Assembly: GCA_016213785.1 (NCBI GenBank)
Contig: JACQZQ010000095.1
Coordinates: forward strand, 1 to 56,742
From: Acidobacteriota bacterium
GTDB lineage: Bacteria; Acidobacteriota; Blastocatellia; Chloracidobacteriales; JADJPF01
Length of the DNA stretch: 56,742 bases
Direction of reading: 5' to 3'
This document shows, one piece after another, positions 34,313 to 56,601 of the stretch. The notes under the pieces are model-generated. The model made no database searches. It was not told where the DNA came from and worked only from the letters and a program-made list of their open reading frames with translations. Each line of letters begins with the position of its first letter. The stretch's first letter is position 1. Both the position numbers and the translations under genes were made by a program.

Positions 34313-34474
34313 TATTTTCACCTGATTATTAAATTCTTGGATATTTTTAATTGATTAAGTGCCATTCTAGCTAATATTTTTCCTGCAAGTAACTTAATTT
34401 GGCTACGTTCTAAGAGCCAAGAAATTAAAATTGAAATAAACCTTTTTTTGGTTTTTAAGGAGAAGCTTTATTTT

Positions 34475-35200
34475 ATGAGTATACAAAGCACTTTTTTAAC
34501 TAAATCTACTAATGAAACCCTTCCTATCTCTCCTAATAGCAAAACTACTGATACTAAGCGCAATCAAACAAGTATTCTCTCCCCTTTTGAACAAATAGCA
34601 TTGCAATGGTTAGTCAAACGCCTACCTAGTTGGGTAAACCCCGATCACCTTTCAATAATAGGGCTTTTAGCAATGTTACTAGCTGGTATAGGTTATTTTT
34701 TTAGCAAAGGAAATATTGAGTTTTTACACTTAGTTAATTTTTGTCTAGCGCTAAATTGGTTTGGTGACAGTCTAGACGGTACTTTAGCACGTTATCGCAA
34801 TAAACAACGCCCTAAGTATGGTTTCTATGTAGATCATATAATAGACACTTTTGGAATGCTATTTTTAATGGTTGGTTTAATAATGTCTGGTTTTATCTCT
34901 GAAAGAGTTGGATTAGGTATTTTAATTGTCTACTTTATGCTTTCCATTAATTCATATCTAGCAGCCTATTCGCTAAATGTGTTTTCTATTTCTTTTTGGA
35001 AATTTAGTCCAACTGAACTAAGAATTTTACTTGCAATAGGTAATCTTGCTCTCTTTAAGTTTGAGTATTGTAAATTATTTGGACAAAAATACTTACTTTA
35101 TGATGTTGGTGGGATTGTAAGCATTATAGGAATGAGTGCAATGCTAATAGTTTCAACTATTAAAAATACCAAAGCGCTTTATGAGAAGGAGCGAGTTTAA
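34475..35200 (+). CDS. CDP-alcohol phosphatidyltransferase family protein
   Basis: An integral membrane enzyme of about 241 aa that would transfer a phosphoalcohol from a CDP-activated donor. The family signature DG(x)2AR(x)8-9G(x)3D(x)3D is present, starting at 'DSLDGTLARYR' and ending at 'DHIID'. About six membrane helices follow or surround it. The ATG at 34475 is chosen because AAGGAG lies 12 bases upstream; a longer frame starts at a TTG. The next gene (GtrA family) begins at the last base of its stop (TAATG), so the two are translationally coupled. The acceptor is unknown; phospholipid or phosphonolipid synthesis is possible. Confidence 0.85.
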   Translation: MSIQSTFLTKSTNETLPISPNSKTTDTKRNQTSILSPFEQIALQWLVKRLPSWVNPDHLSIIGLLAMLLAGIGYFFSKGNIEFLHLVNFCLALNWFGDSLDGTLARYRNKQRPKYGFYVDHIIDTFGMLFLMVGLIMSGFISERVGLGILIVYFMLSINSYLAAYSLNVFSISFWKFSPTELRILLAIGNLALFKFEYCKLFGQKYLLYDVGGIVSIIGMSAMLIVSTIKNTKALYEKERV

Positions 35201-35640
35201 TGCTTAAACTGCCCCCCAATAAACTAAAAGTCTCTTGGATATGGAATTGGTGTAAATTTAATTTAGTAGGACTCTTAGGTGTAGCGCTTCAACTATCTCT
35301 ATCAAGGCTTTTTGCTGCTATAAATCTAGACTATCTATTAGCTACATTTATAGCAGTAGAAATCACTATACTTCATAATTTTTACTGGCATGAGCATTGG
35401 ACTTGGAGAGAGCAAACGCTTAAATCTAACCATTTTTTTGATAAGCTCTTTCGTTTAGTCAAATTTAACTCTACAACAGGAGCAATTTCTTTAATTGGAA
35501 ATTTAGTTTTAATGAAGTTTTTTGTTGGAGCTTTTCACTTACCTATAACTTTTGCAAATCTTTTAGCTATTATAAGTTGCTCTACATTAAATTTTTTAGT
35601 TAGCCATAGAGTTGTCTTTCGCAACCATCAAACCGTGTAA
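35200..35640 (+). CDS. GtrA-family membrane protein
   Basis: A 146-aa protein with four membrane helices and the GtrA/DPMS-accessory pattern: 'FNLVGLLGVALQLSL' at the start, 'EITILHNFYWHEHWTWRE' in the middle and 'NFLVSHRVVFR' at the end. GtrA proteins are thought to help flip lipid-linked sugars or other prenyl-phosphate intermediates. Its ATG overlaps the stop of the CDP-alcohol phosphatidyltransferase, so the pair probably act on a common lipid substrate. Confidence 0.88.
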   Translation: MLKLPPNKLKVSWIWNWCKFNLVGLLGVALQLSLSRLFAAINLDYLLATFIAVEITILHNFYWHEHWTWREQTLKSNHFFDKLFRLVKFNSTTGAISLIGNLVLMKFFVGAFHLPITFANLLAIISCSTLNFLVSHRVVFRNHQTV

Positions 35641-36352: not shown

Positions 36353-36751
36353 TTAGATAACCTTATTGTTTGAAATAAGTTTTAGTATTTCCTCTCTACT
36401 TTTAATTTTATCGTTATAACCTTTTTCTCCATAAGGCTCTAAATTATCAAGCCATAAATTTAATTGCTCATTTAGCTCTTCTTTTATGTTAGTAGTTTCT
36501 TTAGGCTTAATTTCATCCAAAACTTCAAAAACAAAAGCATTTTCACTTAGTTTATTCCAATCTTCTTGAAGGCTTTTACTTTTATGGCTACCCATCTTTA
36601 GTTGAAACCTATTGCTATTTATGATCCCTTGTAGATTTAGAGCAGACCCAATATATATTTTTCCATTAATAGTGTTGCGGATTTGATAGATCCCCATTTG
36701 TATTTCTTGTTGTTGATAATCTTTTTTTAAGTCTTTATTACTTTTCTTCAT
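36353..36751 (-). CDS. GIY-YIG nuclease domain protein
   Basis: A 132-aa protein with the GIY-YIG signature 'GIYQIRNTINGKIYIGSA' at about 20-37. The conserved Arg of the family would then be in the 'HKSKSLQEDW' area but is not certain, and the catalytic Glu may lie in 'NEQLNLWLDNL'. The layout resembles stand-alone GIY-YIG proteins found as single genes in many bacteria and phages. No DNA-binding domain is attached. GAGGGAAAT precedes the ATG. It lies behind pyrG-directed genes on the same strand but is separated by a gap of 40 bp from the end of pyrG. Confidence 0.7.
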   Translation of the reverse strand: MKKSNKDLKKDYQQQEIQMGIYQIRNTINGKIYIGSALNLQGIINSNRFQLKMGSHKSKSLQEDWNKLSENAFVFEVLDEIKPKETTNIKEELNEQLNLWLDNLEPYGEKGYNDKIKSREEILKLISNNKVI

Positions 36752-36791: not shown

Positions 36792-38501
<1,710 letters not shown>

Positions 38502-39491: not shown

Positions 39492-42400
39492 CTAGAAAAT
39501 TAACTTAATACCAAATTGAATGACTCTTGGGCCACCTTCTCCAAGCTTAGGATTTCCAGCAGAAATATCAGGAGTTTCTCCAATTGCTCCAAAACCTGAG
39601 CTATCAAATTGAACATTAGGCAATCCAAAATTTGGATGATTAAAAATATTAAATATTTCTGCACGAAATTGTATTGCTAACTTTTCGCTAATTTTAGTAC
39701 GCTTATTTATTGAAAAATCAGCAACATTAAACCTTGGGCCAATAATAGTATTTCGCCCAGCAGTCCCAAATGTTCCTGTACGAGGTAAGGAAAAAGCTTT
39801 TGTATTAAAAAATGAGTTTACTTTCTCAAGCCCTGAATTAGGATCACTAACTGCGTTTGGACGGTCATTAAAATTCCCTACCCCGCTTACATCAGTAGAT
39901 AAAAATGCTGTAGCAGGAAATCCAGTTGATAAAGTATAGATTCCGCTCAGTTGCCAGCCTTCTGTAACAGCTTTTGGTAGGCGATTTAGCAACTTAGGAA
40001 GAAAGTTTAGCTCATAAACAAAATTAAATGTAAATCTATTCTTTATATCAAAATTTGACACTGAACGCTCTGCACGTAAATTATTGCTATCTTGAGGAAA
40101 TGATACACCTCTAGTGCCTGAAAAAATACCATTTGAAGCATCATCAATAGATTTAGAGTAAGTATAAGAGAGGAAAAAATCTAAGCCATTTGAAAAGCGT
40201 TGTCTAACAAAAGTCTGTAACGCATGATAATTAGAATTAGCTGTTGTTTCTAGGTAATTAATAGAGCTAAATTGTGGAAACTGTGTATTAAATGGTCTAC
40301 GGCTTTGACGTGTTGCTATTGGGCCTGGTGTTGGTTGATTAATATCTCTTAAACGAAATAGCCTAGTTCCCGTTGAGCCTACATAAGAAATTTGTAGTAC
40401 AGTATTAGCTCTAACAGCATATTGAACATTTAAGTTAAAATTCTGACTGTAAGGAGTACGTAATTTTCTATCAACAGCAAATAAAGGTGCTGCGGCCACA
40501 GCATTAATGCTAGCACTAGTAAATATAGGGATATTAAGGCCAAAAGGTACTCTAGCAGTAGGAGCAAAGTTTACAGTAAATGTTCCTAGTCCAGCAATAG
40601 GATTAGTCCCAACACTACCAGCAGCAAAACCTTGAGATAAAAAAAAATCTTGAGACAAAGCATCATAGAAAATCCCATAGCCGCCCCTAATAATTAGCCT
40701 ATTTTTTCCATGAAAATCATAAGCAAATCCTATTCTTGGAGCAAAATTATTATGATCAGGCTCATATAATTCTGATAAACCCGTTGCTCCAACACGAACT
40801 AAACCTAAATTAGGGACAAAGTTTGAAAGTCTATCGTTTTCATCAGAAAATACTCCTACATACTCATATCTAATTCCATAGTTAAGGGTTAGGTTACGGC
40901 GGATTTTCCAATCATCTTGGAAGAAGAAAGCAAAAGTATTATTAAAAGTGTCTCTTCTAGTTGCACCTCGGGCAATTGTGGTATTAGTTGGAACAGCTAT
41001 GCCTGCAAGAAAATTTGCTAAGTTGCTAAAATCAATTCTTCCTCGGGAAAAAGTATCATTAAAAGAGTTAACTATTGCTCGGCGATATTCTCCACCTATT
41101 TTATATGTATGAGAACCGCTAATTAATGTAAAGTTATCAACTAGCTGAAATGCGCTACTAACACGGCCACGAGGTACATTTGTTGGTGCTCCTAGGCTTG
41201 TAAACCCAGCAAGTGTAATAGTTGGAAGTCCTCCTGTAGAACCTGTAATTAAACCTATTGAAGCAGGATCAAAGCCTTTATCTAAAGGTGAAAAGTCTTG
41301 AAAAAATCGATTGTATCCAACTCTAGTTTCATTAAGTATATTATTACCAAAAAGTTGCACCAAATTCAAGCCTACTAATTGAACTCTAGTAGGGACTACG
41401 GTTTGGTATTGTGAAAGAGGAGAACCAAATCCACTAGTTAAAGGAAAAATTTGCATTCCATCACCAAAAACATAGCGTCCACTAAGGTTTAGATTTTCCC
41501 TTATCTTATGATCGATTTTAACTAAGAAATTATCACTATCATTAATATTATTAGAGCTAAAAGCAAAATTATTACGTGCTCCAGGATTATTTTCTGAAGG
41601 AAATAGCTTAAGTAGCACAGTAGAAAGAGGATTTTCTCTTCTTCCCATAGAATTATTAGCGGCTCTTGCATTAACAATATCTGAAGCACTCGGTACAACT
41701 ACGGCCAAAGGTGAGTTAGCCCTTTCTCTTTGGCCTTCAAAACCAAAAAAGAAAAAAGTGCGATTACGAATAATTGGCCCGCCCACTACACCACCAAAAT
41801 TATTATTCTTAAATTCTCCTTTAGTTGCACCTGGAATAGTTTCAAAAAAGTTTCTTGCATCAAAGTTATCATTTCTTAAAAACTCATATAAGCTACCATG
41901 AAAATCATTAGTGCCAGATTTAACTACAATGTTAAAAACGGCTCCTGAGTTTCTACCATATTCTGCTGCACCTTGTAGCTGTAAGCTAAATTCTGCCAGT
42001 GCATCAATAGGAACAAGGGTTGCGGGTGCACCTGTAACACCACCTTGATTAAATGATGGTTGATTACGAAAAGAATCATTATTATCTATACCATCAATAA
42101 GAAATATATTAGCTTTTTCTCTTTGTCCATTTACGGTTAATGAGCCTAAAGATCCACGTGGTGAACGAGGAGAAACACCAGGGACTAAAGTTGTTAGACG
42201 GCGAAAATCTCTACCATTTAAAGGAAGTCCATCTATTTGCTGGTTATTAATGGTTTCTGTTAATTGGCTACTTGATGATTGAAGTACAGGCGCAGTAGCT
42301 CCAGTAATAATAATAACTTGCTGGCTAGCTCTAACTTGTAGATTTAATTCTAGTTGTGTTTCTACACCTACATCAATTTTTACTTGTTTGCGTGTAGTAG

Positions 42401-42683
42401 AAGCAAAATTTTCTGAGTCTATAGATATTGAGTAATAACCTGGGGGTAGCTCAGGAACAACAAAATTTCCATTATCTGAAGAAACTACTTCTCGCTTAAT
42501 TCCAGTAGCTTCATTTTCAATAACTATTGAAATTCCACCAATAACAGCACCTTCAGGATCCCTAACAGAACCTACTAAACGTCCTGCAAATGATTGCGAG
42601 TAACCTTCTTTAATTAAGCAAAAAAATAGAAGTAAAATTACTAATATCTGTCGAAAAAATACGATTCGGGGCGTTTTTTTCAT
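39492..42683 (-). CDS. Oar-like TonB-dependent outer-membrane receptor
   Basis: A 1063-aa outer-membrane protein. It has a signal peptide (about 1-29, 'KEGYSQS'), then a carboxypeptidase-regulatory-like beta-sandwich ('GRLVGSVRDPEGAVIGGISIVI' pattern, about 33-115), a plug domain (about 120-250, 'GRDFRRLTTLVPGVSPRS', 'NIFLIDGIDNND') and a large beta-barrel ending with Phe. This is the Oar-like class, greatly expanded in Acidobacteria, with unknown substrates. The start has TAGGAG upstream of the ATG. It is a single-gene unit between tmRNA and kdsB. Confidence 0.93.
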   Translation of the reverse strand: MKKTPRIVFFRQILVILLLFFCLIKEGYSQSFAGRLVGSVRDPEGAVIGGISIVIENEATGIKREVVSSDNGNFVVPELPPGYYSISIDSENFASTTRKQVKIDVGVETQLELNLQVRASQQVIIITGATAPVLQSSSSQLTETINNQQIDGLPLNGRDFRRLTTLVPGVSPRSPRGSLGSLTVNGQREKANIFLIDGIDNNDSFRNQPSFNQGGVTGAPATLVPIDALAEFSLQLQGAAEYGRNSGAVFNIVVKSGTNDFHGSLYEFLRNDNFDARNFFETIPGATKGEFKNNNFGGVVGGPIIRNRTFFFFGFEGQRERANSPLAVVVPSASDIVNARAANNSMGRRENPLSTVLLKLFPSENNPGARNNFAFSSNNINDSDNFLVKIDHKIRENLNLSGRYVFGDGMQIFPLTSGFGSPLSQYQTVVPTRVQLVGLNLVQLFGNNILNETRVGYNRFFQDFSPLDKGFDPASIGLITGSTGGLPTITLAGFTSLGAPTNVPRGRVSSAFQLVDNFTLISGSHTYKIGGEYRRAIVNSFNDTFSRGRIDFSNLANFLAGIAVPTNTTIARGATRRDTFNNTFAFFFQDDWKIRRNLTLNYGIRYEYVGVFSDENDRLSNFVPNLGLVRVGATGLSELYEPDHNNFAPRIGFAYDFHGKNRLIIRGGYGIFYDALSQDFFLSQGFAAGSVGTNPIAGLGTFTVNFAPTARVPFGLNIPIFTSASINAVAAAPLFAVDRKLRTPYSQNFNLNVQYAVRANTVLQISYVGSTGTRLFRLRDINQPTPGPIATRQSRRPFNTQFPQFSSINYLETTANSNYHALQTFVRQRFSNGLDFFLSYTYSKSIDDASNGIFSGTRGVSFPQDSNNLRAERSVSNFDIKNRFTFNFVYELNFLPKLLNRLPKAVTEGWQLSGIYTLSTGFPATAFLSTDVSGVGNFNDRPNAVSDPNSGLEKVNSFFNTKAFSLPRTGTFGTAGRNTIIGPRFNVADFSINKRTKISEKLAIQFRAEIFNIFNHPNFGLPNVQFDSSGFGAIGETPDISAGNPKLGEGGPRVIQFGIKLIF

Positions 42684-43262: not shown

Positions 43263-43523
43263 GCTAAGAATTACACCTAAAAGCTATAATTTATATTTTA
43301 TGCTGACTTTTAATTAGTCATAACTCTTTACCTTTTAACTACTATATCACCCGCTTATCGACTAACATAACCACTTAAAAGATTTTTTATATCCAAATAC
43401 CAGATTTTCCTTAATAATTTATTATTGTAAATAAATAAAATTATATTTATAAAAGTTTACAATAATTTTACTTCACTACAGAAAAATACTAGGGATATAT
43501 AAATTTATATTAGGAGAAAGATC
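43263..43523. other. Upstream region between ssrA and the phosphonate genes
   Basis: About 260 bp of very AT-rich DNA with no open frame. It must hold the promoter of the phosphonate operon, but no single -35/-10 pair stands out. A good AGGAG ribosome binding site lies at its end. Confidence 0.4.
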
Positions 43524-44492
43524 ATGTCTCTTGCTGCCAAAAAAACTACTCGGTTAAAACAACTAATCCAAAGCTCAGAAACTAAGTTTATAATGGAAGC
43601 CCATAATGGTTTAAGCGCTAAAATAGTTGAAGAGGCTGGTTTTGAAGGTATTTGGGCAAGCGGTTTGTCTATTTCTGCCACTTTAGGTCTAAGAGATTCA
43701 AATGAAGCAAGTTGGACTCAAGTTTTAGAAGTAGTAGAATTTATGAGTGATGTTACTAGTATTCCTATTTTACTTGATGGTGATACAGGCTATGGAAATT
43801 TTAATTCATTTCGTCGCTTAGTAAAAAAATTAGAACAACGAAATATTGCTGGTGTATGTATTGAGGACAAAGTTTTTCCTAAAAATAATAGTTTTGTAAG
43901 AGGAAATCGCCAAGTTTTAGCCGATATAAATGAGTTTTGTGGCAAAATTCAAGCAGGTAAAGACTCTCAAAATTGCCCTGATTTTGTCATAGTAGCAAGA
44001 GTAGAGGCTTTTATAGCTAAACTAGGCTTAAAAGAAGCATTAAAACGTGCAGAAGCCTATCGTAAGGCTGGTGCAGATGCAATTTTAATTCATAGCGCCT
44101 TAGATAATGCAAGCGAAGTCCTAGCATTTAAAGAAGAATGGGCTAATCGTTTGCCTGTGGTTATAGTACCTACTAAATATTATAAAACACCCACAGAGGT
44201 TTTTTGTAAAGCGGGTTTTTCGTTAGTAATTTGGGCTAATCATCTTATGCGTTCTGCTATTACTTCTATGCAAGAAACGGCTAGGACAATTTTTATACAA
44301 CAAAGTTTATCTTTTGTAGAAGGAAAAATAGCAGGTCTTGATGAAGTTTTTAGACTTCAAAATGAAGCTGAATTAACTGAAGCCGAAAAACATTACTTAA
44401 AAATTAAAGAATCTAAAATTAGAAAAGCCAAAAACTCTAGCCTTATTAAAGAGCAAAATACAAAAACTTTATCAAATATGGTAATAAATTAA
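43524..44492 (+). CDS. pepM: Phosphoenolpyruvate phosphomutase
   Basis: A 322-aa enzyme of the isocitrate lyase/PEP mutase family that rearranges phosphoenolpyruvate to phosphonopyruvate, the first step of nearly all phosphonate biosynthesis. The diagnostic motif [11 protein letters not shown] is at 114-124 and the magnesium-binding 'LLDGDTGYG' at 83-91. The N-terminal '[24 protein letters not shown]' pattern is typical. It has an AGGAGAAAG site. It is followed after 27 bp by the phosphonopyruvate decarboxylase. The C-terminal ~30 residues are Lys-rich and probably disordered. Confidence 0.96.
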
Positions 44493-44519
44493 TCTCTTGA
44501 TTATAAAAGGATTAAGAAA

Positions 44520-45656
44520 ATGATTAGCTCAGAACTTTTTGTTAACCAATTACAAAACTTGGGCTTTGGCCTCTTTACAGGCGTTCCCTGTTCATTTCTT
44601 AGCCCATTAATTAATTATGTTATTGATAGCCCATCACTTAACTATGTTGGGGCAGCTAATGAAGGAGATGCCGTAGCCATAGCAACAGGCAGTGAACTTG
44701 CTGGTATTCATAGTGTTGTAATGATGCAAAATTCTGGACTTGGTAATGCTTTTAATCCCTTAACTTCTCTTAATGCAATATTTCACCTCCCTGTGCTTTT
44801 AATTGTAACTTGGCGTGCTGAGCCAGGAAGCGAGTTAGATGAGCCTCAACATGAGCTTATGGGGCAAATTACATTAAAATCCCTTGAGCTAATAAATATT
44901 GCTTGGGATTATTGCCCTGAGCAAGATAACCAGATTGAAACTACTTTATATAAAGCTATTACCCATATGTCAGAAACAGGACGTCCTTTTGCTTTAGTAG
45001 CAAGAAAAAACTCTTTTGCTCCATATAAACTAAAAACTAAGCTCTCTACTAAAGCTATTTTAAGAGAAAATCTTTCTAATACTAATAGTATTACTCCTCT
45101 ACCAACAAGATCTCAGGTCTTAAAAGTAGTGCAAGAAAAAGCTCAAGGCCAAGATGCAATAATAGCTACAACTGGCTTTACTGGACGCGCTCTTTATGCT
45201 TTATCAGACTTAGAGAATCAATTTTATATGGTAGGTTCAATGGGGTGTGCATCTAGTTTAGGTTTAGGTTTAGCGATTTCTAAGCCAGATAAAAAAGTAA
45301 TAGTAGTTGATGGGGATGGTGCGGCATTAATGAGGCTTGGAGCGTTAACAACAATTGGGTATGAGTCACCTAAAAATCTTGTCCACTTGCTACTAGACAA
45401 TGAAATGCACGAATCTACAGGCGGACAATCAACAGTTTCTCACTCAATAGATTTTGCTTTAATAGCTCAAGCTAGTGGATATAGAAAAGTAGTTAGGGCT
45501 TATTCTTTGGAAGATATAGCTTTAGCGCTTAAAGAGTCAAATGAGCTTACTTTTATTTACGCAAAAATTTCTTCTGAGGAAACCAAAAACTTGCCTCGAC
45601 CAACAGTTAAACCGCCTGAAGTAGCTAAACGTTTTAGCCTTTGGCTAAATAAATAA
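44520..45656 (+). CDS. ppd: Phosphonopyruvate decarboxylase
   Basis: A 378-aa thiamine-diphosphate enzyme that pulls the pathway forward by decarboxylating phosphonopyruvate to phosphonoacetaldehyde. The catalytic Glu48 lies in 'AANEGDAVAIATG', 'GVPCSFL' is near the N-terminus, and the ThDP/Mg motif is in 'VVDGDGAALMRLG' near residue 265. Both alpha (pyr) and beta (PP) halves are in one chain. Spacing of 27 bp to pepM and 40 bp to phnW indicates one operon. Confidence 0.95.
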   Translation: MISSELFVNQLQNLGFGLFTGVPCSFLSPLINYVIDSPSLNYVGAANEGDAVAIATGSELAGIHSVVMMQNSGLGNAFNPLTSLNAIFHLPVLLIVTWRAEPGSELDEPQHELMGQITLKSLELINIAWDYCPEQDNQIETTLYKAITHMSETGRPFALVARKNSFAPYKLKTKLSTKAILRENLSNTNSITPLPTRSQVLKVVQEKAQGQDAIIATTGFTGRALYALSDLENQFYMVGSMGCASSLGLGLAISKPDKKVIVVDGDGAALMRLGALTTIGYESPKNLVHLLLDNEMHESTGGQSTVSHSIDFALIAQASGYRKVVRAYSLEDIALALKESNELTFIYAKISSEETKNLPRPTVKPPEVAKRFSLWLNK

Positions 45657-45696
45657 ACTACTAACTCTAGCTAATATATTATCTTAGGAGAAAACA

Positions 45697-46794
45697 GTGA
45701 GTTCACCTAAAACTATAAAACTACTTAACCCTGGCCCAGTTACACTTACAAACCAAGTTCGCCAAGCACTTTTAAGAGAAGATATTTGTCATCGTGAAAG
45801 CGAATTTTCTTTACTCCAATCTAGTATTAGGTCAGAACTTGTTAGAGTTTATAAAGAAGCAGAAAAAGACTATACTGCTGTATTAATCACTGGTTCAGGT
45901 ACAGCAGCAGTTGAATCAATGGTAAGTTCACTTGTCCCTAAAACCTCTAAAGCTTTAGTAATGGTTAATGGGGCTTATGGTGAACGAATGGTTAATATGC
46001 TTACTGTGCAAGGAAAAGAGGTTTATATTGCTCGCTCTGATTGGACTCAAGATATAAATTTAGAGCTAGCTGAAACGCTACTTAAAGAAAACCCTGAAAT
46101 TACCCATGTATTGGCAGTCCATCATGAGACTACAACAGGACGCTTAAATGATATTCCATCACTTGCAAAACTTTGCCGTAAATATCACAAAAACTTGCTT
46201 TTAGATGCTGTCTCTAGTTTTGCAGGTGAAGAAATTCATTTTAATGAGTGGAATTTAGAAGCCTGTGCCGCTACAGCAAATAAATGTTTGCATGGAGTAC
46301 CTGGGATTTCTTTTGTAATAGTGCGTAAAGATTCGTTAGAGAAAAAAGAATCTGCGGCAACAAGCATTTATCTTGATTTATTTCGCCATTTTCAAGAACA
46401 AAATAAAAATTCAACCGCTTTTACTCCTGCAATTCAAGTTTGTTATGCCTTAAGTGAAGCACTTAAAGAACTTGAATCTTTAGGCGGTTGGCAGATACGT
46501 CACTCTTATTATAAAACTCTTGCTAAAAAAATCTTCCAAGGCTTAAGAGATTTAGGTGTTAAAACTCTTTTAGAAATAGATTCTCCATCCTCTGTGGTTT
46601 TAACGGCTTATCAAGTACCTAAAAATCATGCTTACAAAGACCTCCATGATTTTATTAAATCTCAGGGCTATGTAATTTATTCTGGCTTAGGTAAATTTAG
46701 CAGTGATATTTTCCGAATTTCTACAATGGGTGATTTTAATCATAACGACGCAAAACATTTGTTATCTGTATTTAAAGAGTTTTTAGAACAGTAA
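45697..46794 (+). CDS. phnW: 2-aminoethylphosphonate aminotransferase
   Basis: A 365-aa class V PLP aminotransferase. It starts with GTG and an AGGAG site. Lys196 in 'ATANKCLHG' is the Schiff-base residue, with 'LLNPGPVTLTNQV' at the N-terminus and 'LLDAVSSF' before the Lys. In degradation PhnW makes phosphonoacetaldehyde; next to pepM and ppd it should run in reverse and make 2-aminoethylphosphonate. There is no phosphonatase (phnX) or C-P lyase gene nearby, which supports the biosynthetic role. Confidence 0.93.
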   Translation: MSSPKTIKLLNPGPVTLTNQVRQALLREDICHRESEFSLLQSSIRSELVRVYKEAEKDYTAVLITGSGTAAVESMVSSLVPKTSKALVMVNGAYGERMVNMLTVQGKEVYIARSDWTQDINLELAETLLKENPEITHVLAVHHETTTGRLNDIPSLAKLCRKYHKNLLLDAVSSFAGEEIHFNEWNLEACAATANKCLHGVPGISFVIVRKDSLEKKESAATSIYLDLFRHFQEQNKNSTAFTPAIQVCYALSEALKELESLGGWQIRHSYYKTLAKKIFQGLRDLGVKTLLEIDSPSSVVLTAYQVPKNHAYKDLHDFIKSQGYVIYSGLGKFSSDIFRISTMGDFNHNDAKHLLSVFKEFLEQ

Positions 46795-46832
46795 ATTATA
46801 GGATAAAATTTTACATACCTAGGAATATGACT

Positions 46833-47693
46833 ATGACAGGACTATTAATAGTATTAGCATCAGCTTTTTTACATGTAATAGTTCACTTAGTTCTTAAGCT
46901 AGCTAAAAATCCTACTGCTTTTTTATGGTGGATGTGGTTTTGGGCAATAGTCTTGTTTTTTCCTGTTTTACTATTTACTTGGCACCCTATTCCGTTAAAA
47001 GTTTGGTTAGTAATTATATTAAGTGCTGGTTTTGGAGCACTTTACTATAAATCTATTGCTGAAGCTTACAAAATAGGAGAATTATCAACAATTTATCCTC
47101 TAGCTCGTGGGACGGCTCCAATATTTCTTTTATTTTGGTCAGTATTGCTTTTAGAAGAACGCCCTTCTTGGGGAGGAATATTTGGGATAAGTTTAATCGC
47201 TTTTGGGCTTTATACTATTAATTTACCTAAAATAGGCGCTTGGAAGGAAATTTTCCAGGCATTAGAAAAACCTGCTGCTCGTTGGGCATTACTTGCAGGA
47301 CTTTGTACATCGCTTTATACAACCTGCGATAAATTTGCTGTTGGTTTTGTTTCTCCTCTTCTCTACACATATTTAACAATGTTTTTAACCTTAATCTACT
47401 TAACTCCAGGAACACTTAAGTCACTTGGAAAAGACGGTTTATTCCAAGAATTAAAACTTTGTTGGTCAAAAAGTATTCTAGCTGGAATTTTAGCAATGTC
47501 TATCTACATAATGCTGCTTTGGGTAATGCAAAAGGGTATGCCCGCAAGCTATGTAGGTGCAACTAGAGAAATAAGCGTTGTTTTAGCAGCAATTGTTGGC
47601 ACATTGATATTAAAAGAACAGGGCACAAAAATGAAATTAATAGGCTCAAGTCTAATTGCTAGTGGAGTTGGGACAATTGCTCTACTTGGCTAA
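46833..47693 (+). CDS. EamA-family drug/metabolite transporter
   Basis: About 286 aa with ten predicted membrane helices in two EamA repeats. Conserved family pattern: 'LSTIYPLARGTAPIFLLFWSVLLLEERPSW' type block in the first half and 'ASYVGATREISVVLAAIVGTLILKEQ' in the second. The ATG at 46833 has AGGA eight bases upstream and is preferred over the one at 46827. Its place between phnW and the methyltransferase suggests export or import of an aminophosphonate, but direction and substrate are not shown. Confidence 0.88.
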   Translation: MTGLLIVLASAFLHVIVHLVLKLAKNPTAFLWWMWFWAIVLFFPVLLFTWHPIPLKVWLVIILSAGFGALYYKSIAEAYKIGELSTIYPLARGTAPIFLLFWSVLLLEERPSWGGIFGISLIAFGLYTINLPKIGAWKEIFQALEKPAARWALLAGLCTSLYTTCDKFAVGFVSPLLYTYLTMFLTLIYLTPGTLKSLGKDGLFQELKLCWSKSILAGILAMSIYIMLLWVMQKGMPASYVGATREISVVLAAIVGTLILKEQGTKMKLIGSSLIASGVGTIALLG

Positions 47694-47742
47694 ACTATGA
47701 TTATTAAATAAGTTACTAAATTATATAAATTAGGAGTAAAAA

Positions 47743-48546
47743 ATGGAAAACTCTACTCAAATGCAACCAATACAACCATCTGAAGAAGTTAATCGTTATA
47801 CTCGTCGTAGCATTCTACGCTCAGAAGAAATGTATGGAACTGGGTTTCAAAGCCCTGGCAGTATTACAATGGTAGAAAATTTCTGCAAACGCTTAGGCTT
47901 AGAAAATAAAATTAAAATCCTTGATATAGGAAGTGGTTTAGGCGGAGCTTGCTTTTATTTTGCAGAGAATTATGATGCAACTGTTCTTGGCCTAGATATT
48001 GCTCAAGCAATGGTGGAAATTAGCACAGAACGAAAAATAGAAAAAAACTTAGATAAAGTTAGCTTCCTTTATGGAGATATTAAAGATGTTGAATTAGAAC
48101 CAAATTCTTTTGACCTTGTTTGGACAAGAGACTGTATTCTTTATGTAGAAGAAAAACTAAAAGTTTGGCAACAGGCTTATAAGTTCTTAAAACCTGGTGG
48201 AAAACTTTTTATCACAGATTTTTGCCGTAAAAAAGAAACACTTTCTACAGAATTTTCTAATTACTTAGAGCAATGCAGCTATTATTTACAAAGTGTTGAT
48301 GATTATAGTCAAACTCTTGAAAACGTTGGTTTGACAGTCTTATCTAAAGAAGATATCACTGACACTTTTATTAGCTGTTTACAAAAAGAATTAGATAATC
48401 TAAATAGTAGAAAATCAGACTTTTTAACAAAATATACTCAAGATGATTATGATTATTTAGATACTCGTTGGAAAAACAAAATTAAATTCTGTAAAGATGG
48501 GGATTTTCGTTGGGGTTTATTTATTGCTCAAAAACCCACTTTATAG
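47743..48546 (+). CDS. Phosphoethanolamine N-methyltransferase-like enzyme
   Basis: A 267-aa SAM-dependent methyltransferase. SAM motif I is 'ILDIGSGLGG' (59-68), followed by 'GLDIA' with Asp85 at the ribose position, and 'LKPGGKLFITDFCR' is motif III. The pre-motif 'YGTGFQSPGS' (31-40), 'WTRDCILYVEEK', 'SVDDYSQTLENVGL', 'DTFISCLQKELD' and the final 'RWGLFIAQKP' all match the layout of plant, nematode and Plasmodium phosphoethanolamine methyltransferases. In this cluster the isosteric 2-aminoethylphosphonate is the natural candidate substrate. An AGGAG site lies ahead of the ATG. It is the last gene of the run. Confidence 0.85.
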   Translation: MENSTQMQPIQPSEEVNRYTRRSILRSEEMYGTGFQSPGSITMVENFCKRLGLENKIKILDIGSGLGGACFYFAENYDATVLGLDIAQAMVEISTERKIEKNLDKVSFLYGDIKDVELEPNSFDLVWTRDCILYVEEKLKVWQQAYKFLKPGGKLFITDFCRKKETLSTEFSNYLEQCSYYLQSVDDYSQTLENVGLTVLSKEDITDTFISCLQKELDNLNSRKSDFLTKYTQDDYDYLDTRWKNKIKFCKDGDFRWGLFIAQKPTL

Positions 48547-48834: not shown

Positions 48835-51141
48835 ATGAGCTTGCATATTTTTGGTATTCGCCATCATGGCCCAGGATCGGCTCGCAGCCTACTAAACAGC
48901 TTAAAGGCACTTGCTCCAGATATAATTTTAGTAGAAGGCCCTCCAGATGCTTCTGAAGTTCTACATTTGGCTAAGCATACTGACATGAAACCTCCTATAG
49001 CAATTTTGTTATATGTGCCAGATGACCCAAGTCGTGCTGTTTATTACCCTTTTGCAGTTTTTTCCCCTGAATGGCAAGCTATAACTTATGGGCTAAAAAA
49101 TGATTTACCTGTACGTTTTATGGATTTACCCCAAACTCACCGTTTAGCAACACCTCCTGTAGAACAATTAGTTGCCTCTTTAACTAACATTAAACAAGAC
49201 CCTTTAGGATGGTTGGCTGAAGCGGCTGGTTATCAAGATGGGGAGCGATGGTGGGAGCATATGATAGAGCATCGTCGCAATAGTACTGATATTTTTGAAG
49301 CAGTACTTGAAGCAATGAGCGAACTACGTAGTTCTGATTTAGTTAATGACCAACCTAAGCTAGAGACTCCACAAGAAAATGCCCAACAAGAAGTTGAATC
49401 TAAAGAACCTCAAGTGACTCTGCCAACCTTGGGCGAAGCTCATAGAGAAGCCTATATGCGCCAAAGCATTCGTTTAGCACAAAAAGAAGGCTACAGAAAA
49501 ATTGCTGTTATATGTGGAGCTTGGCACGCACCTGCATTAAAAGAACCTGAAAATATAAAAGAAGTAAAGGAACTAGCTAAAAGCGATAGCACACTACTTA
49601 AGGCTTTGCCTAAAGTAAAAATTCAAGCTACTTGGGTTCCTTGGACGCATGGGAGGCTTTCTTATTTTTCAGGCTACGGGGCTGGAATAGAATCTCCTGG
49701 ATGGTATCACCACCTTTGGACAAATAATAAATCCTCTGCTACACAAATAGTAATTCGCTGGATGGCAAAGGTTGCTCATTTTCTTAGAAAAGAAGATTTA
49801 GACGTTTCCGCAGCACATATAATTGAAGGTGTAAGACTAGCCGAAGCCCTTGCATCATTAAGAGATCGCCCTCTACCTAGTTTGCAAGAAATTAATGAAG
49901 CTATTCAAACAGTGTTTTGTTTTGGTAGCGATTTACCATTACAACTTGTTCATAAGAAACTAATTGTTGGAGAAGAATTAGGAGAAATTCCAGAAGAAAC
50001 TCCTATGACTCCAATTCAACAAGATCTAAATAAAGAGCAAAAACGCCTACGTCTCCCAATAGAAGTAAATGCTAAAACTCTAGACCTAGACTTACGTAAA
50101 GAAAATGAGCTTGCCCGTAGTCATTTATTACACCGTTTATCTATCCTAAATATTCCTTGGGGACAAATACAACATAGCGGGAATGCACGAGGAACTTTTC
50201 ATGAAATTTGGAAACTTGAATGGCAACCAGATTTTTCTATTAGAGTTATTGAAGCTGGAATTTGGGGAAATAATATCCATGATGCAACTACAGCTTATGT
50301 ATGTGACCAAGCAAATAAGGCTGGCGATCTTCCTGCTATAACCAAGCTAGTAGATCATACTTTACTAGCTAATTTACCTACAGCAGTAGAACATGTTTTA
50401 AGAAAGCTACAAGAAAAAGCATCTCTAGCAAATGATGTAACTCATTTAATGGCAGCACTTCCGCCCTTAGCACAAGTAATGCGTTATGGAAATGTAAGAA
50501 AAACCGACTCTGAGAGTGTAGGCCAAATAGTTGATGAGCTAATTACACGTGTTTGTGTTGGACTACCAAATGCTTGTTTTTCCCTTAACGATGATGCAGC
50601 AGCACAAATGTATGAGCATATAGTAAAAACTAATCAGGTAGTTAACTTACTCCAAAAAGAGGAGCATAATAAGTCTTGGTGCAGTACACTTAGACAGCTA
50701 GTAGACAAACCATTTTTACATGGTTTAATTGCAGGTCGAGCTTGTCGTTTATTATATGATATTAAAGAGTTTAATGTAGAAGAGACAGCTAATCATATGA
50801 GCTTAGCGCTTTCAGTAGCAAGCGATCCTGTTCAATCAGCCTCATGGATAGAAGGGTTTCTTAAAGATAGTGGACTCTTACTAGTCCATGACATAAAACT
50901 ATGGCAAGTCTTGGATGTTTGGGTATCATCGCTTAAAGAAGAAGCTTTTACAATCCTACTACCTCTACTACGCCGCACATTTTCAACATTTGAAAAAGCT
51001 GAGCGAAGACAAATAGGAGAATTAGCTAAAAAAGGTGGTACAAAAGCAAGCCTTCGTAAAAGCGCCCCAAAGGAGTTTGACCAAGTTAGAGCAGAATCAA
51101 CATTACCTGTACTAGCAAAACTACTAGGATTAAACCTATAA
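48835..51141 (+). CDS. DUF5682 family protein
   Basis: A 768-aa protein with the DUF5682 layout: 'MSLHIFGIRHHGPGSARSL' at the start, 'DIILVEGPPDA', 'CGAWHAPAL' near residue 226 and a long helical C-terminal half. In other bacteria this family is encoded next to a MoxR-type AAA ATPase and a VWA-domain protein. The VWA partner follows here after 16 bp, but no MoxR gene is in the window. Its activity is unknown. A possible haem- or metal-binding role of the conserved His residues is speculation. Confidence 0.85.
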   Translation: MSLHIFGIRHHGPGSARSLLNSLKALAPDIILVEGPPDASEVLHLAKHTDMKPPIAILLYVPDDPSRAVYYPFAVFSPEWQAITYGLKNDLPVRFMDLPQTHRLATPPVEQLVASLTNIKQDPLGWLAEAAGYQDGERWWEHMIEHRRNSTDIFEAVLEAMSELRSSDLVNDQPKLETPQENAQQEVESKEPQVTLPTLGEAHREAYMRQSIRLAQKEGYRKIAVICGAWHAPALKEPENIKEVKELAKSDSTLLKALPKVKIQATWVPWTHGRLSYFSGYGAGIESPGWYHHLWTNNKSSATQIVIRWMAKVAHFLRKEDLDVSAAHIIEGVRLAEALASLRDRPLPSLQEINEAIQTVFCFGSDLPLQLVHKKLIVGEELGEIPEETPMTPIQQDLNKEQKRLRLPIEVNAKTLDLDLRKENELARSHLLHRLSILNIPWGQIQHSGNARGTFHEIWKLEWQPDFSIRVIEAGIWGNNIHDATTAYVCDQANKAGDLPAITKLVDHTLLANLPTAVEHVLRKLQEKASLANDVTHLMAALPPLAQVMRYGNVRKTDSESVGQIVDELITRVCVGLPNACFSLNDDAAAQMYEHIVKTNQVVNLLQKEEHNKSWCSTLRQLVDKPFLHGLIAGRACRLLYDIKEFNVEETANHMSLALSVASDPVQSASWIEGFLKDSGLLLVHDIKLWQVLDVWVSSLKEEAFTILLPLLRRTFSTFEKAERRQIGELAKKGGTKASLRKSAPKEFDQVRAESTLPVLAKLLGLNL

Positions 51142-52983: not shown

Positions 52984-54063
52984 ATGAAAAATGAAAATTG
53001 GCAACAGGTTAAACAATTATTAGCTCAAGCATTGGAAAAAGACCCATCCCTGCGCGATGAGTTTTTGACAGAAGTTTGCAAATCTAACTTAGAAATTAAA
53101 AAAGAAGTAATGGCGTTACTAGCGCATGAAGAACAAGTAGTGGGGTTTCTTTCCACTCCTTTGATAAAAGCTCCTTTAGTACAAGGGCCTCTACAAAGCC
53201 AATTAAATCAACAAAGTGCAAAACCTAGAAGTTTAGAGGAAATGTTAATAAGTTTAATTGGAGAAACACTTGATGATAAGTACAAAATAGAAGAACAACT
53301 TGGTCAAGGTGGAATGGGAGCAGTTTTTAAGGCTACTCATTTAGGTACAGATCGCACTGTAGCGCTTAAAGTTATTAACCCTCAACTTATGACTAACGGT
53401 GACTTTGTTGAGCGCTTTAAGCGAGAGGCAAAAGCAGCAGGGCGACTCTCTCATCCAAATGTTGTTAATGTTACAGACTTTGGATTTACTAGGATTGGAG
53501 TAGACAATATAGCCTACCTAGTAATGGAATACCTTAATGGTTTTACCCTAGCAAGTATTTTAGCAAAAAAGAAAACACTACCTTTAGAATTTGTTGTAGA
53601 CATTATTGAGCAAACCTGTTTAGCCGTAGAACTTGCACATAAACAAGGGATAATTCATCGAGACTTAAAGCCTGATAACATTTGGCTAGAGCCAAATGAG
53701 CGTGGAGGATATAACGTAAAAGTCCTAGATTTTGGAGTAGCTAAACTAAAAAATAATACTAGAGATAGCCAAGAAAAAAAAACTTCACTTAATTTAGTAA
53801 ATGATACTAAAAACTTAGGTTTAGCAGAAAATGACTCCTTTTCCTCTACTTTAATAAAAGGGCTTAATAATCTTAATAATAATTCATTAACACTATCTTA
53901 CAATAATTGTTATTCAGATAAGTGTTCCATAAACCCTGCAATTACAGAAATTATTAAAAAATATGACACTCAAGAAGATTTGCTTCCACAAACAAATGTA
54001 GATACTTGGCTTACTGGAGTAGGAATAATTGTTGGAACACCCACTTATATGTCACCTGAATAA
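52984..54063 (+). CDS. Ser/Thr protein kinase, N-terminal part ending at a premature TAA
   Basis: The N-terminal 'NWQQVKQLLAQALEKDP' helical domain is typical of kinases paired with ECF sigma factors. The kinase domain starts at about residue 100: 'LGQGGMGAVFKA', 'VALKVI', 'HRDLKPDN' (225-232) and Asp249-Phe-Gly. The activation segment is unusually long: about 110 residues from DFG to 'SPE' (357-359) against the usual 25-35. At codon 360, where kinases have Gln in 'MSPEQ', there is TAA. The frame continues unchanged into the next ORF ('CQGLELDARSDIYSLGVILYKML'). A CAA to TAA change explains it. Alone this part lacks the C-lobe and should be inactive. Confidence 0.85.
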   Translation: MKNENWQQVKQLLAQALEKDPSLRDEFLTEVCKSNLEIKKEVMALLAHEEQVVGFLSTPLIKAPLVQGPLQSQLNQQSAKPRSLEEMLISLIGETLDDKYKIEEQLGQGGMGAVFKATHLGTDRTVALKVINPQLMTNGDFVERFKREAKAAGRLSHPNVVNVTDFGFTRIGVDNIAYLVMEYLNGFTLASILAKKKTLPLEFVVDIIEQTCLAVELAHKQGIIHRDLKPDNIWLEPNERGGYNVKVLDFGVAKLKNNTRDSQEKKTSLNLVNDTKNLGLAENDSFSSTLIKGLNNLNNNSLTLSYNNCYSDKCSINPAITEIIKKYDTQEDLLPQTNVDTWLTGVGIIVGTPTYMSPE

Positions 54064-56601
54064 TGCCAAGGCTTAGAATTAGATGCAAGATCAGATATCT
54101 ACAGCTTAGGTGTTATTCTTTATAAAATGCTATCTGGGGAAACTCCTTTTAAGGGTGATATCCACCAAGTAATGGTTCAACATGTAAATGTTACAGCACC
54201 TAACTTAAAAGAAAAATGCCCAAAGCTCTCCAAAACAATAACAGATCTCGTTATGTCAGCTTTATCAAAAAAGGTAGAAAATCGCCCAGTTAGTGCAATA
54301 GCTCTTTCTATTGCATTAAAAGCAGCTTTAGAAGGTGAAGCACCTATTTTAAGCCAAGCTGTAGATTTATTTAGAAGTAACTTTGTTAAAATTTTCCGTG
54401 TTTCAACTCTAATAAATCTACCTATAATTTTATTTAATGCAATTTTGATTGGTTTACTTCAACAAAATCCAACTGTGTTACCAGGCTTCAAGTATTTTTC
54501 TGTTTTATGGTGGTTATTGCCTTTACTAATTACACTTTTTGCTACAAAGCTTAATATAGCAGCATTTGCCCCTCTTATAAGTGAAATCTATAAAAATAAA
54601 ACTATAGATATTTCTATCAAAGAAATGCTCGTTAATCTAAAAAGAAATCTCCTTAAGCTAGTTATTACTACTGGGCATGAAAGCTTAGCCGTTTTTAGTA
54701 ACCTCATTAAATTTATTGTTCCTGGATTTAGAAAACATATTGAGTTGCTAATGTCGTCTTATGTTGTAGCTATAGAAAAACTAGATGGAAAGTTAGCCCT
54801 AGAGCGTTCTAGCAAACTAATCAAGCCTGTAAGGTCTTTAACCCTAAGTATTGAGCTTAGGCGTTTAACTACTTGTTTTACGATATTTTTTCTTTCATTT
54901 TTACCTTTTTGTTTAGACGAGTTAATTGATTTTTCTCAACCAAACTCCTCTTCTATAAGAATGTTCTTTTTTATAAGAATAGATATCATACAATTCTATG
55001 CAATAGCCTTTGTTTGGGCAGTTCTTATTCCTGGACTAATTGCCATATTGATTCAACCTGTTATTGCATTGGCATTTTTGCAGATTTACATCAAAAGTCG
55101 TTATATTTTAGGAGAGCCAATAAACAACATAAGCACTCTAGCAAAAACTGAAACTTATATGCCAAAGTATCCTTTAAGGAAAAATAGAAGTAAGTTAGTT
55201 TTAGCAAGCCTAATAATTGTAACACTTTTACTGTCAAGTATTTCTTATACTTTATTTGTCTCACCGCCAGAAATAGTAGAAGTAAAATTACCAGAAATAG
55301 AAAAAATCCCAGACTCAGAAAATGCTTGGGTTGAATATAGGCTAGCCCTTGGAGAGTTAGTAAAAACATCTTTGTTGGATAGTGTAGCTGTTTCTGATTT
55401 TTCTTTAGAAGACTTTGATTTAAAAAATTTTTTGGCTCACCCCAAATTATTTCAAGTTTTATCAAAAAATTATGAGGATTTTTATAATCAGATAACAAAT
55501 GCTTCTAAATTAACAGAGCAACAAAAAAACGTTTTAGACAATTACAAAACTGCTATAACCTATCTCTTAGCAGCAACCAAGAAACCTAAAGCCAAATACT
55601 ATAGCGAAATAAATGGTGATATTGAAAATATAAACCTTCGAAGTTTAATGTGTTTAGCCTGTATTACTTTAGCACAATCTCACCGTCTAATACTCGAAGG
55701 TAAAGAACAAGAAGCTATTAACATAATCCTAGCAGTTTATAAACTTTCAACAGATATTATGTCAGAACCTTATGTTCCGTCAGTAAATTATCTAATTGGT
55801 AATATGGTGCAAGGAAGAACTATTAAAGTTTTGCTTCTATGGCTTAATAACAATATAATTACTCAAGAAGATTATCTAAAGTTAATAAAAAAGATGGAAC
55901 TATTAGAAGCTAATACTATCTCTCCTACAGAAATAGTACTTAATAGTAGTTTAGATTTTGAGAGAGAGATGAGGAGGTATTTAGTAAATTATAAATTTGG
56001 TGAAAATTTGTCCTACCCACTATATAGGTTGAGAGAGTTAAAACCATTTTATGGTCTTCGTTTAAGAATTTATCATTTCCTTACTAAAAGTTATAAAAAC
56101 AATATAAAAAATTTGTCTTATGAGATAAAAAAATATAATTTTGTAAAAATAAAACACCAATCAGAAAATTTAGAAAAACAATTCTATTATCCTCCCACTT
56201 TGGAAAAGCTTATAGCAAAGGAAGTTTTCCAATACTCAAGTACTTTTTATAACTATGCAAGCCTTAGAACCTTTTATATGTTTCAATCTGTTACTTCAGT
56301 TTGGAAAAGCTTTGCTGTTTGTCTTGCTTACAAAAAAGCTAATGGTCACTTTCCTTCAAGTCTAGAAGAAGCTTTTGCTAATACAGGTATTTCTATTCCT
56401 ATTGATCCTGTTACATCTAAACCTATTCGTTACCGCTTAGAAAAAGGAGTTCCAGTTGTTTGGTTTGCGGGATATGATGGAGTTGATGACGAAGGAAAAA
56501 TTAGTTCTGACTATAACAATTATGGTAGGAATTTATCTGGGCAAGATTGGATATTTCGTTTTGGCGAAATGCCATTTCTTTATGCTCCAACTAAAAAGTA
56601 A
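54064..56601 (+). CDS. Ser/Thr kinase C-terminal part, in frame after the TAA
   Basis: This is the continuation of the same gene: 'ARSDIYSLGVILY' (kinase subdomain IX), 'LSKTITDLVMSALSKKVENRPVS', then a membrane region with several helices (about 'TLINLPIILFNAILIGLL', 'LLPLLITLFATKLNIAAFA', 'LIPGLIAILIQPVIALAFL'), a further helix near 55200-55250, and a ~440-aa C-terminal domain. The first internal ATG is at 54127. No ribosome binding site supports independent translation. The reading frame remains open for 846 codons, so the interruption is recent, or is a sequencing error or is read through. The membrane part fits a receptor-kinase design. Confidence 0.75.
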   Translation, partial: CQGLELDARSDIYSLGVILYKMLSGETPFKGDIHQVMVQHVNVTAPNLKEKCPKLSKTITDLVMSALSKKVENRPVSAIALSIALKAALEGEAPILSQAVDLFRSNFVKIFRVSTLINLPIILFNAILIGLLQQNPTVLPGFKYFSVLWWLLPLLITLFATKLNIAAFAPLISEIYKNKTIDISIKEMLVNLKRNLLKLVITTGHESLAVFSNLIKFIVPGFRKHIELLMSSYVVAIEKLDGKLALERSSKLIKPVRSLTLSIELRRLTTCFTIFFLSFLPFCLDELIDFSQPNSSSIRMFFFIRIDIIQFYAIAFVWAVLIPGLIAILIQPVIALAFLQIYIKSRYILGEPINNISTLAKTETYMPKYPLRKNRSKLVLASLIIVTLLLSSISYTLFVSPPEIVEVKLPEIEKIPDSENAWVEYRLALGELVKTSLLDSVAVSDFSLEDFDLKNFLAHPKLFQVLSKNYEDFYNQITNASKLTEQQKNVLDNYKTAITYLLAATKKPKAKYYSEINGDIENINLRSLMCLACITLAQSHRLILEGKEQEAINIILAVYKLSTDIMSEPYVPSVNYLIGNMVQGRTIKVLLLWLNNNIITQEDYLKLIKKMELLEANTISPTEIVLNSSLDFEREMRRYLVNYKFGENLSYPLYRLRELKPFYGLRLRIYHFLTKSYKNNIKNLSYEIKKYNFVKIKHQSENLEKQFYYPPTLEKLIAKEVFQYSSTFYNYASLRTFYMFQSVTSVWKSFAVCLAYKKANGHFPSSLEEAFANTGISIPIDPVTSKPIRYRLEKGVPVVWFAGYDGVDDEGKISSDYNNYGRNLSGQDWIFRFGEMPFLYAPTKK

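Follow-up and report, generated by a model that had tools for sequence, protein, structure and literature searches.

In PfPMT, a phosphoethanolamine N-methyltransferase (PMT), Tyr19, Tyr27, Tyr160, Tyr175 and Tyr181 are crucial for phosphobase binding, with Arg179 and Lys247 present for charge and Tyr19 and His132 forming the catalytic dyad (PMC6705855). N-methyl- and trimethyl-2-aminoethylphosphonate (AEP) are reportedly common as natural products and have dedicated degraders among bacteria, with TmpA catabolism as one example (PMC10590968), and N,N,N-trimethyl-AEP is a biosynthetic intermediate of the dehydrofosmidomycin (dfm) pathway of Streptomyces lavendulae (PMC9296572). About two-thirds of phosphonate clusters contain a PntC-type nucleotidyltransferase, and the switch between the AEP-specific PntC and the phosphocholine-specific LicC cytidylyltransferase was driven mainly by pocket size (PMC6697681). 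The subject of this analysis is a stretch of 56,742 nucleotides from an Acidobacteriota bacterium (contig JACQZQ010000095.1; hereafter the window), in which a predicted five-gene operon at positions 43524-48546 begins with pepM and ends with a gene for a PMT-family methyltransferase (MT). We consider it somewhat more probable than its opposite that this operon makes AEP and N-methylates it through a PMT retargeted to AEP. To our knowledge, no route to N-methyl- or trimethyl-AEP has been assigned outside the dehydrofosmidomycin cluster.

The operon and AEP synthesis

In the list of open reading frames (ORFs), the five genes are intact, all on the plus strand and arranged in the order pepM-ppd-phnW-EamA-MT, with intergenic gaps of 27, 40, 32 and 49 bp from pepM to the MT gene. 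The features are as follows.

43524-44492, plus strand: pepM/aepX, phosphoenolpyruvate (PEP) mutase, 322 aa, stand-alone, without fused nucleotidyltransferase (TIGR02320)
44520-45656, plus strand: ppd/aepY, phosphonopyruvate decarboxylase, 378 aa (TIGR03297)
45697-46794, plus strand: phnW/aepZ, AEP aminotransferase, 365 aa, GTG start (TIGR03301, NF010006)
46827-47693, plus strand: EamA/DMT-family transporter, 288 aa (PF00892)
47743-48546, plus strand: PMT-family methyltransferase (MT) dependent on S-adenosylmethionine (SAM), 267 aa, with altered substrate pocket (PDB phmmer, AF2, Foldseek, tree, pocket table)
43513-43517, plus strand: AGGAG, Shine-Dalgarno-like, of pepM (read in the sequence)
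47732-47736, plus strand: AGGAG, Shine-Dalgarno-like, of the MT gene (read in the sequence)
39492-42683, minus strand: gene before pepM, divergent, Oar-like TonB protein, in keeping with Acidobacteriota (ORF list)

AGGAG stands 6 nt 5' of the start codon of both pepM and the MT gene, as part of TTAGGAG at both, and the next gene 3' of the MT gene begins at 48835, 288 bp on. Because scans for promoters and terminators returned sites no more numerous than in shuffled sequences, the case for an operon is built on spacing and strand, by which the five genes are read as a real operon.

The three biosynthetic proteins were compared with the curated equivalog thresholds of NCBIfam, and each exceeded its cut-off: PepM scored 385 bits against TIGR02320 (cut-off 319.6), Ppd 422 bits against TIGR03297 (312.5) and PhnW/AepZ 374.5 bits against TIGR03301 (360.8), PhnW also passing the cut-off of NF010006 with 307 bits. 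PepM can be aligned over its full length with ten other PepMs and carries EDKxxxKxNS, which contains the family motif EDKxxxxxNS. The genes for the decarboxylase and the aminotransferase adjoin it, as expected of an AEP operon (pepM-ppd-phnW). PepM would convert PEP to phosphonopyruvate, Ppd would decarboxylate the latter to phosphonoacetaldehyde, and PhnW would transaminate this compound to AEP. AEP synthesis as predicted from these genes is well supported, about as strongly as sequence alone allows. The original prediction, made from the letters and the ORFs, had called pepM, ppd and phnW complete and tightly spaced, had expected AEP to be produced and had placed an EamA transporter between phnW and the MT gene; the first and the last statement hold, the transporter matching Pfam PF00892 with 82.5 bits, and the second is supported.

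The nearest relatives of PepM, 62-67% identical, are the PepM domains of PepM-nucleotidyltransferase fusions of Pseudomonadota; the closest PepMs are mostly fused in this way, and that of the window stands alone. For a survey of pepM, TIGR02320 was searched in 1,315 genomes (396 from the phylum of the window, 295 from the genus of a Streptomyces, 378 from the phylum of Endozoicomonas and 246 from the phylum of Isosphaeraceae). These and the other genome surveys are samples, so that "unique" applies within the genomes searched, metagenomes lying outside their scope. PepM was found in 12 of the 396 genomes from the window's phylum; since the eleven others all fall outside its class, the operon was probably acquired. 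As evidence for recent transfer GC content was rejected: at about 34-36%, that of the operon is like that of its surroundings.

Ancestry and substrate pocket of the methyltransferase

The MT belongs to the PMT family by full-length homology and by its place in the tree. In a phmmer search of the PDB its top matches were all PMTs (E 1e-61 to 1e-38), with 9.7e-62 for AtPMT1 and 2.1e-41 for PfPMT, and its alignment to the solved PMTs spans residues 15-265 of 267. The AF2 model has a pLDDT of 93.5 and a pTM of 0.90, and a Foldseek search with it returned PMT structures at ranks 1-21. In a PMSF tree of 33 rows the MT lies within a 15-row PMT clade (support 100/100), next to PMTs from Planctomycetota and Desulfobacteraceae (94/92); its branch is long (1.42). 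The PMT ancestry proposed for the last gene is borne out by these matches. A PMT search of 58 relatives and 396 genomes of the phylum (with six candidates scored per genome in the latter) found only the host genome at E 1e-20, and collections of plasmids and phages contained no relative of the PMT.

The substrate pocket was compared across the MT and 14 other PMTs, using PfPMT residue numbers. The MT retains Tyr19, Asp128, Ser37, Tyr175, Tyr181 and Lys247 along with the SAM motifs, and departs from PfPMT by Gln18>Arg, Tyr27>Ser, Ile36>Gln, His132>Tyr, Tyr160>Phe and Arg179>Cys. None of the 14 other PMTs varies at Gln18, Tyr27, His132 or Tyr160, and the two Isosphaeraceae-type PMTs have Thr in place of Arg179. 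The catalytic dyad thus keeps Tyr19 and has Tyr134 of the MT in the place of His132, and among the phosphobase ligands Tyr175, Tyr181 and Lys247 are present, with Tyr27, Tyr160 and Arg179 replaced by Ser, Phe and Cys. The MT had been credited with the full motif set of PMTs, which does not agree with these substitutions, although the SAM motifs, Tyr19 and Asp128 are in place. Of the 27 columns in which the 14 other PMTs do not vary, the MT differs at 7, four of these lying in the pocket. Each other PMT differs at 0-4 invariant columns, none of them in the pocket; the MT was among the reference rows for these counts, so its four pocket columns went uncounted there, and the pocket table shows them unchanged in the other PMTs. 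The PMT of Endozoicomonas (L011:9899-10768) has an N-terminal hydrophobic stretch resembling a signal or membrane anchor.

Methyl acceptor and fate of the product

AEP has the backbone P-C-C-N and phosphoethanolamine P-O-C-C-N. AEP is one atom shorter and has no ester oxygen, which makes it an analogue and not, as first described, an isostere. Because of this shorter backbone, a rebuilt pocket is to be expected of an AEP enzyme. In the pocket read as rebuilt, Asp128 and Tyr19 on the amine side and Lys247 and two Tyr residues on the phosphate side are kept, Arg179, the hydroxyls of Tyr160 and Tyr27 and the dyad His132 are lost, and Arg18 is gained. Such a retargeting would parallel the LicC/PntC switch, an argument by analogy and no proof. 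No choline/ethanolamine kinase was found above the Pfam cut-off in the host genome (best match 25 bits, cut-off 29). The shared operon, the lack of a kinase above cut-off and the changes at positions where other PMTs are constant together favour AEP, or a derivative of it, as the molecule that is methylated. Most likely the MT would methylate the nitrogen of AEP one to three times with SAM as donor, so that mono- to trimethyl-AEP results, and the EamA protein would probably carry the product across the membrane. That the MT is a dedicated AEP N-methyltransferase, derived from PMT ancestors by rebuilding of the phosphobase pocket, and the operon a stand-alone route to phosphonocholine (trimethyl-AEP) or its mono- and dimethyl forms, is a proposal to which we give an even chance.

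Several observations weigh against the proposal. Taken alone, the excess of pocket changes relative to the remaining invariant sites lacks significance (Fisher p 0.20), and a single sequence of this variant was found among the matches listed, too few for conservation of the pocket signature to be judged. An enzyme that has lost Arg179 and His132 could be acting on something other than a free phosphomonoester or phosphonate, or could have weakened activity. The best NCBIfam match of the EamA protein, TIGR03340 (phn_DUF6), reaches 112 bits and falls below the 288-bit cut-off. A PntC-domain query gave just 31 bits, to a sugar-nucleotidyltransferase-like protein of the host; PntC elsewhere in the genome was therefore rejected, and this weak match leaves some room for activation with cytidine monophosphate (CMP).

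It is unlikely, if worth weighing, that the MT has as its target a conjugate made from AEP or a different phosphonate (an AEP lipid, CMP-AEP or phosphonate O-methylation) instead of on the nitrogen of free AEP. Loss of Arg179 reduces the positive charge at the phosphate site, as would suit a conjugate, and the closest PepM homologues stand in probable phosphonolipid operons with genes of the phosphocholine-cytidylyltransferase family and for a cytidine diphosphate (CDP)-alcohol phosphatidyltransferase. The window operon, however, has neither a nucleotidyltransferase, fused to pepM or separate, as the Pnt (phosphonyl tailoring) pathway would have it, nor a CDP-alcohol phosphatidyltransferase; the PntC query found at best the weak match given above, and among the CDP-alcohol phosphatidyltransferases of the host none is close to those of pepM loci. 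Since a PntC-type cytidylyltransferase is neither fused nor adjacent, and is not clearly encoded elsewhere in the genome, a free small molecule, possibly exported, is more likely as product than a lipid or glycan headgroup. The window does contain a CDP-alcohol phosphatidyltransferase gene (34448-35200), directly followed by a gene for a GtrA-like membrane protein (34448-35640 for both), 8 kb 5' of pepM. It was rejected as a maker of phosphonolipids, given its distance and its weak similarity to the enzymes of pepM loci.

Less probable again is that the MT is an ordinary PMT, converting phosphoethanolamine to phosphocholine as a second headgroup gene beside the AEP genes. Its fold and clade are both those of a PMT, and the SAM motifs and some acceptor residues are retained, but the MT has changes at four to five acceptor residues where other PMTs vary little or not at all, no choline/ethanolamine kinase of the host genome passes the cut-off, and the gene lies within the pepM operon with a ribosome-binding site of its own. 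We attach very little probability to a reading in which the MT is a PMT paralogue in decay or with impaired catalysis and plain AEP is exported by EamA: the Tyr in place of the dyad His132 and the long branch would fit it, but the 267-aa frame is intact, has a good ribosome-binding site and can be aligned end to end, the SAM motifs, Asp128 and Tyr19 are retained, and the AF2 fold is confident.

If AEP N-methylation is the function of the operon, it would supply a route to N-methylated AEPs, known substrates of bacterial catabolism. With PntC versus LicC as the first case, the retargeted PMT would then be a second in which phosphocholine chemistry has been turned to phosphonate chemistry, and the MT would be a directly testable enzyme.

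Elsewhere in the window, a Ser/Thr kinase gene appears to be split into ORFs 52984-54063 and 54127-56601 (52984-56601 overall), perhaps by a frameshift, nonsense change or assembly error, and the CTP synthase gene (36792-38489) has as its neighbour a gene for a small GIY-YIG-like protein (36353-36751).

Occurrence and comparison with known systems

The original prediction had looked to other pepM neighbourhoods for PMT-like genes, and the survey did not provide them. About 9.5 kb per side was read, where contigs allowed, at 90 other pepM loci from the 1,315 genomes, and none has a PMT (best generic methyltransferase 59 bits, as against at least 200 for PMTs). In one Streptomyces genome (L132:7517-9463) a frame of 649 aa, whose C-terminal methyltransferase domain is generic and not PMT-like, lies 9 bp before pepM on the same strand. 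Conversely, PEP mutase was sought in sixteen genomes, including those of ten bacterial PMTs among the matches listed, and none scored above cut-off; three weak matches (140-144 bits) are most likely other superfamily members. A literature search returned no paper linking a PMT with pepM, and a PMT-type enzyme inside a pepM operon appears to be new. The view that no bacterial pathway of this kind had been described stands for the gene order, which none of the 90 neighbourhoods matches, but not for trimethyl-AEP, already a known bacterial intermediate (PMC9296572).

PfPMT, the C-terminal domain of AtPMT1/2 and HcPMT2 share with the MT clade, fold and SAM motifs at 33-38% identity end to end, and have Tyr19, Asp128, Tyr175, Tyr181 and Lys247 in common with it. 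The MT differs from them by Q18R, Y27S, I36Q, H132Y, Y160F and R179C in the acceptor site and by being encoded in a pepM operon.

Other bacteria also have enzymes of the PMT family, for example at locus L015, but these have the canonical pocket, and no pepM was found in their genomes (ten, among the matches listed). At L015 the PMT gene and a choline/ethanolamine kinase gene overlap, as would be expected for a phosphoethanolamine route. On this marine proteobacterial contig (TMED61; L015:5500-10744) an EamA gene and a dimethylglycine-dehydrogenase-like gene lie just upstream of the kinase/canonical PMT pair, and the locus may represent a plant-like phosphoethanolamine route in bacteria.

Like the predicted pathway of the window, the dfm pathway is a phosphonate route through N,N,N-trimethyl-AEP, a comparison made at the level of the pathway and not of the dfm methyltransferase sequence (PMC9296572). 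In the dfm pathway DfmD rearranges trimethyl-AEP to the antibiotic, whereas the window operon has no dioxygenase gene: no DfmD-like 2-oxoglutarate dioxygenase was found among the five scanned operon genes, and none of the neighbours, judged by eye from the ORF list, resembles one. A Streptomyces dfm-type cluster was also considered as a source of a PMT-like comparator and rejected, as no such methyltransferase was found (0 of 26 Streptomyces pepM loci with a PMT-like neighbour).

The AEP operons on plasmids of Mycetohabitans and Roseomonas share the pepM-ppd-phnW core and have the closest PepMs (62-67%). In these loci, which look like phosphonolipid synthesis, PepM is mostly fused to a nucleotidyltransferase and accompanied by cytidylyltransferase-family and CDP-alcohol phosphatidyltransferase genes, whereas the window has EamA and the MT in their place.

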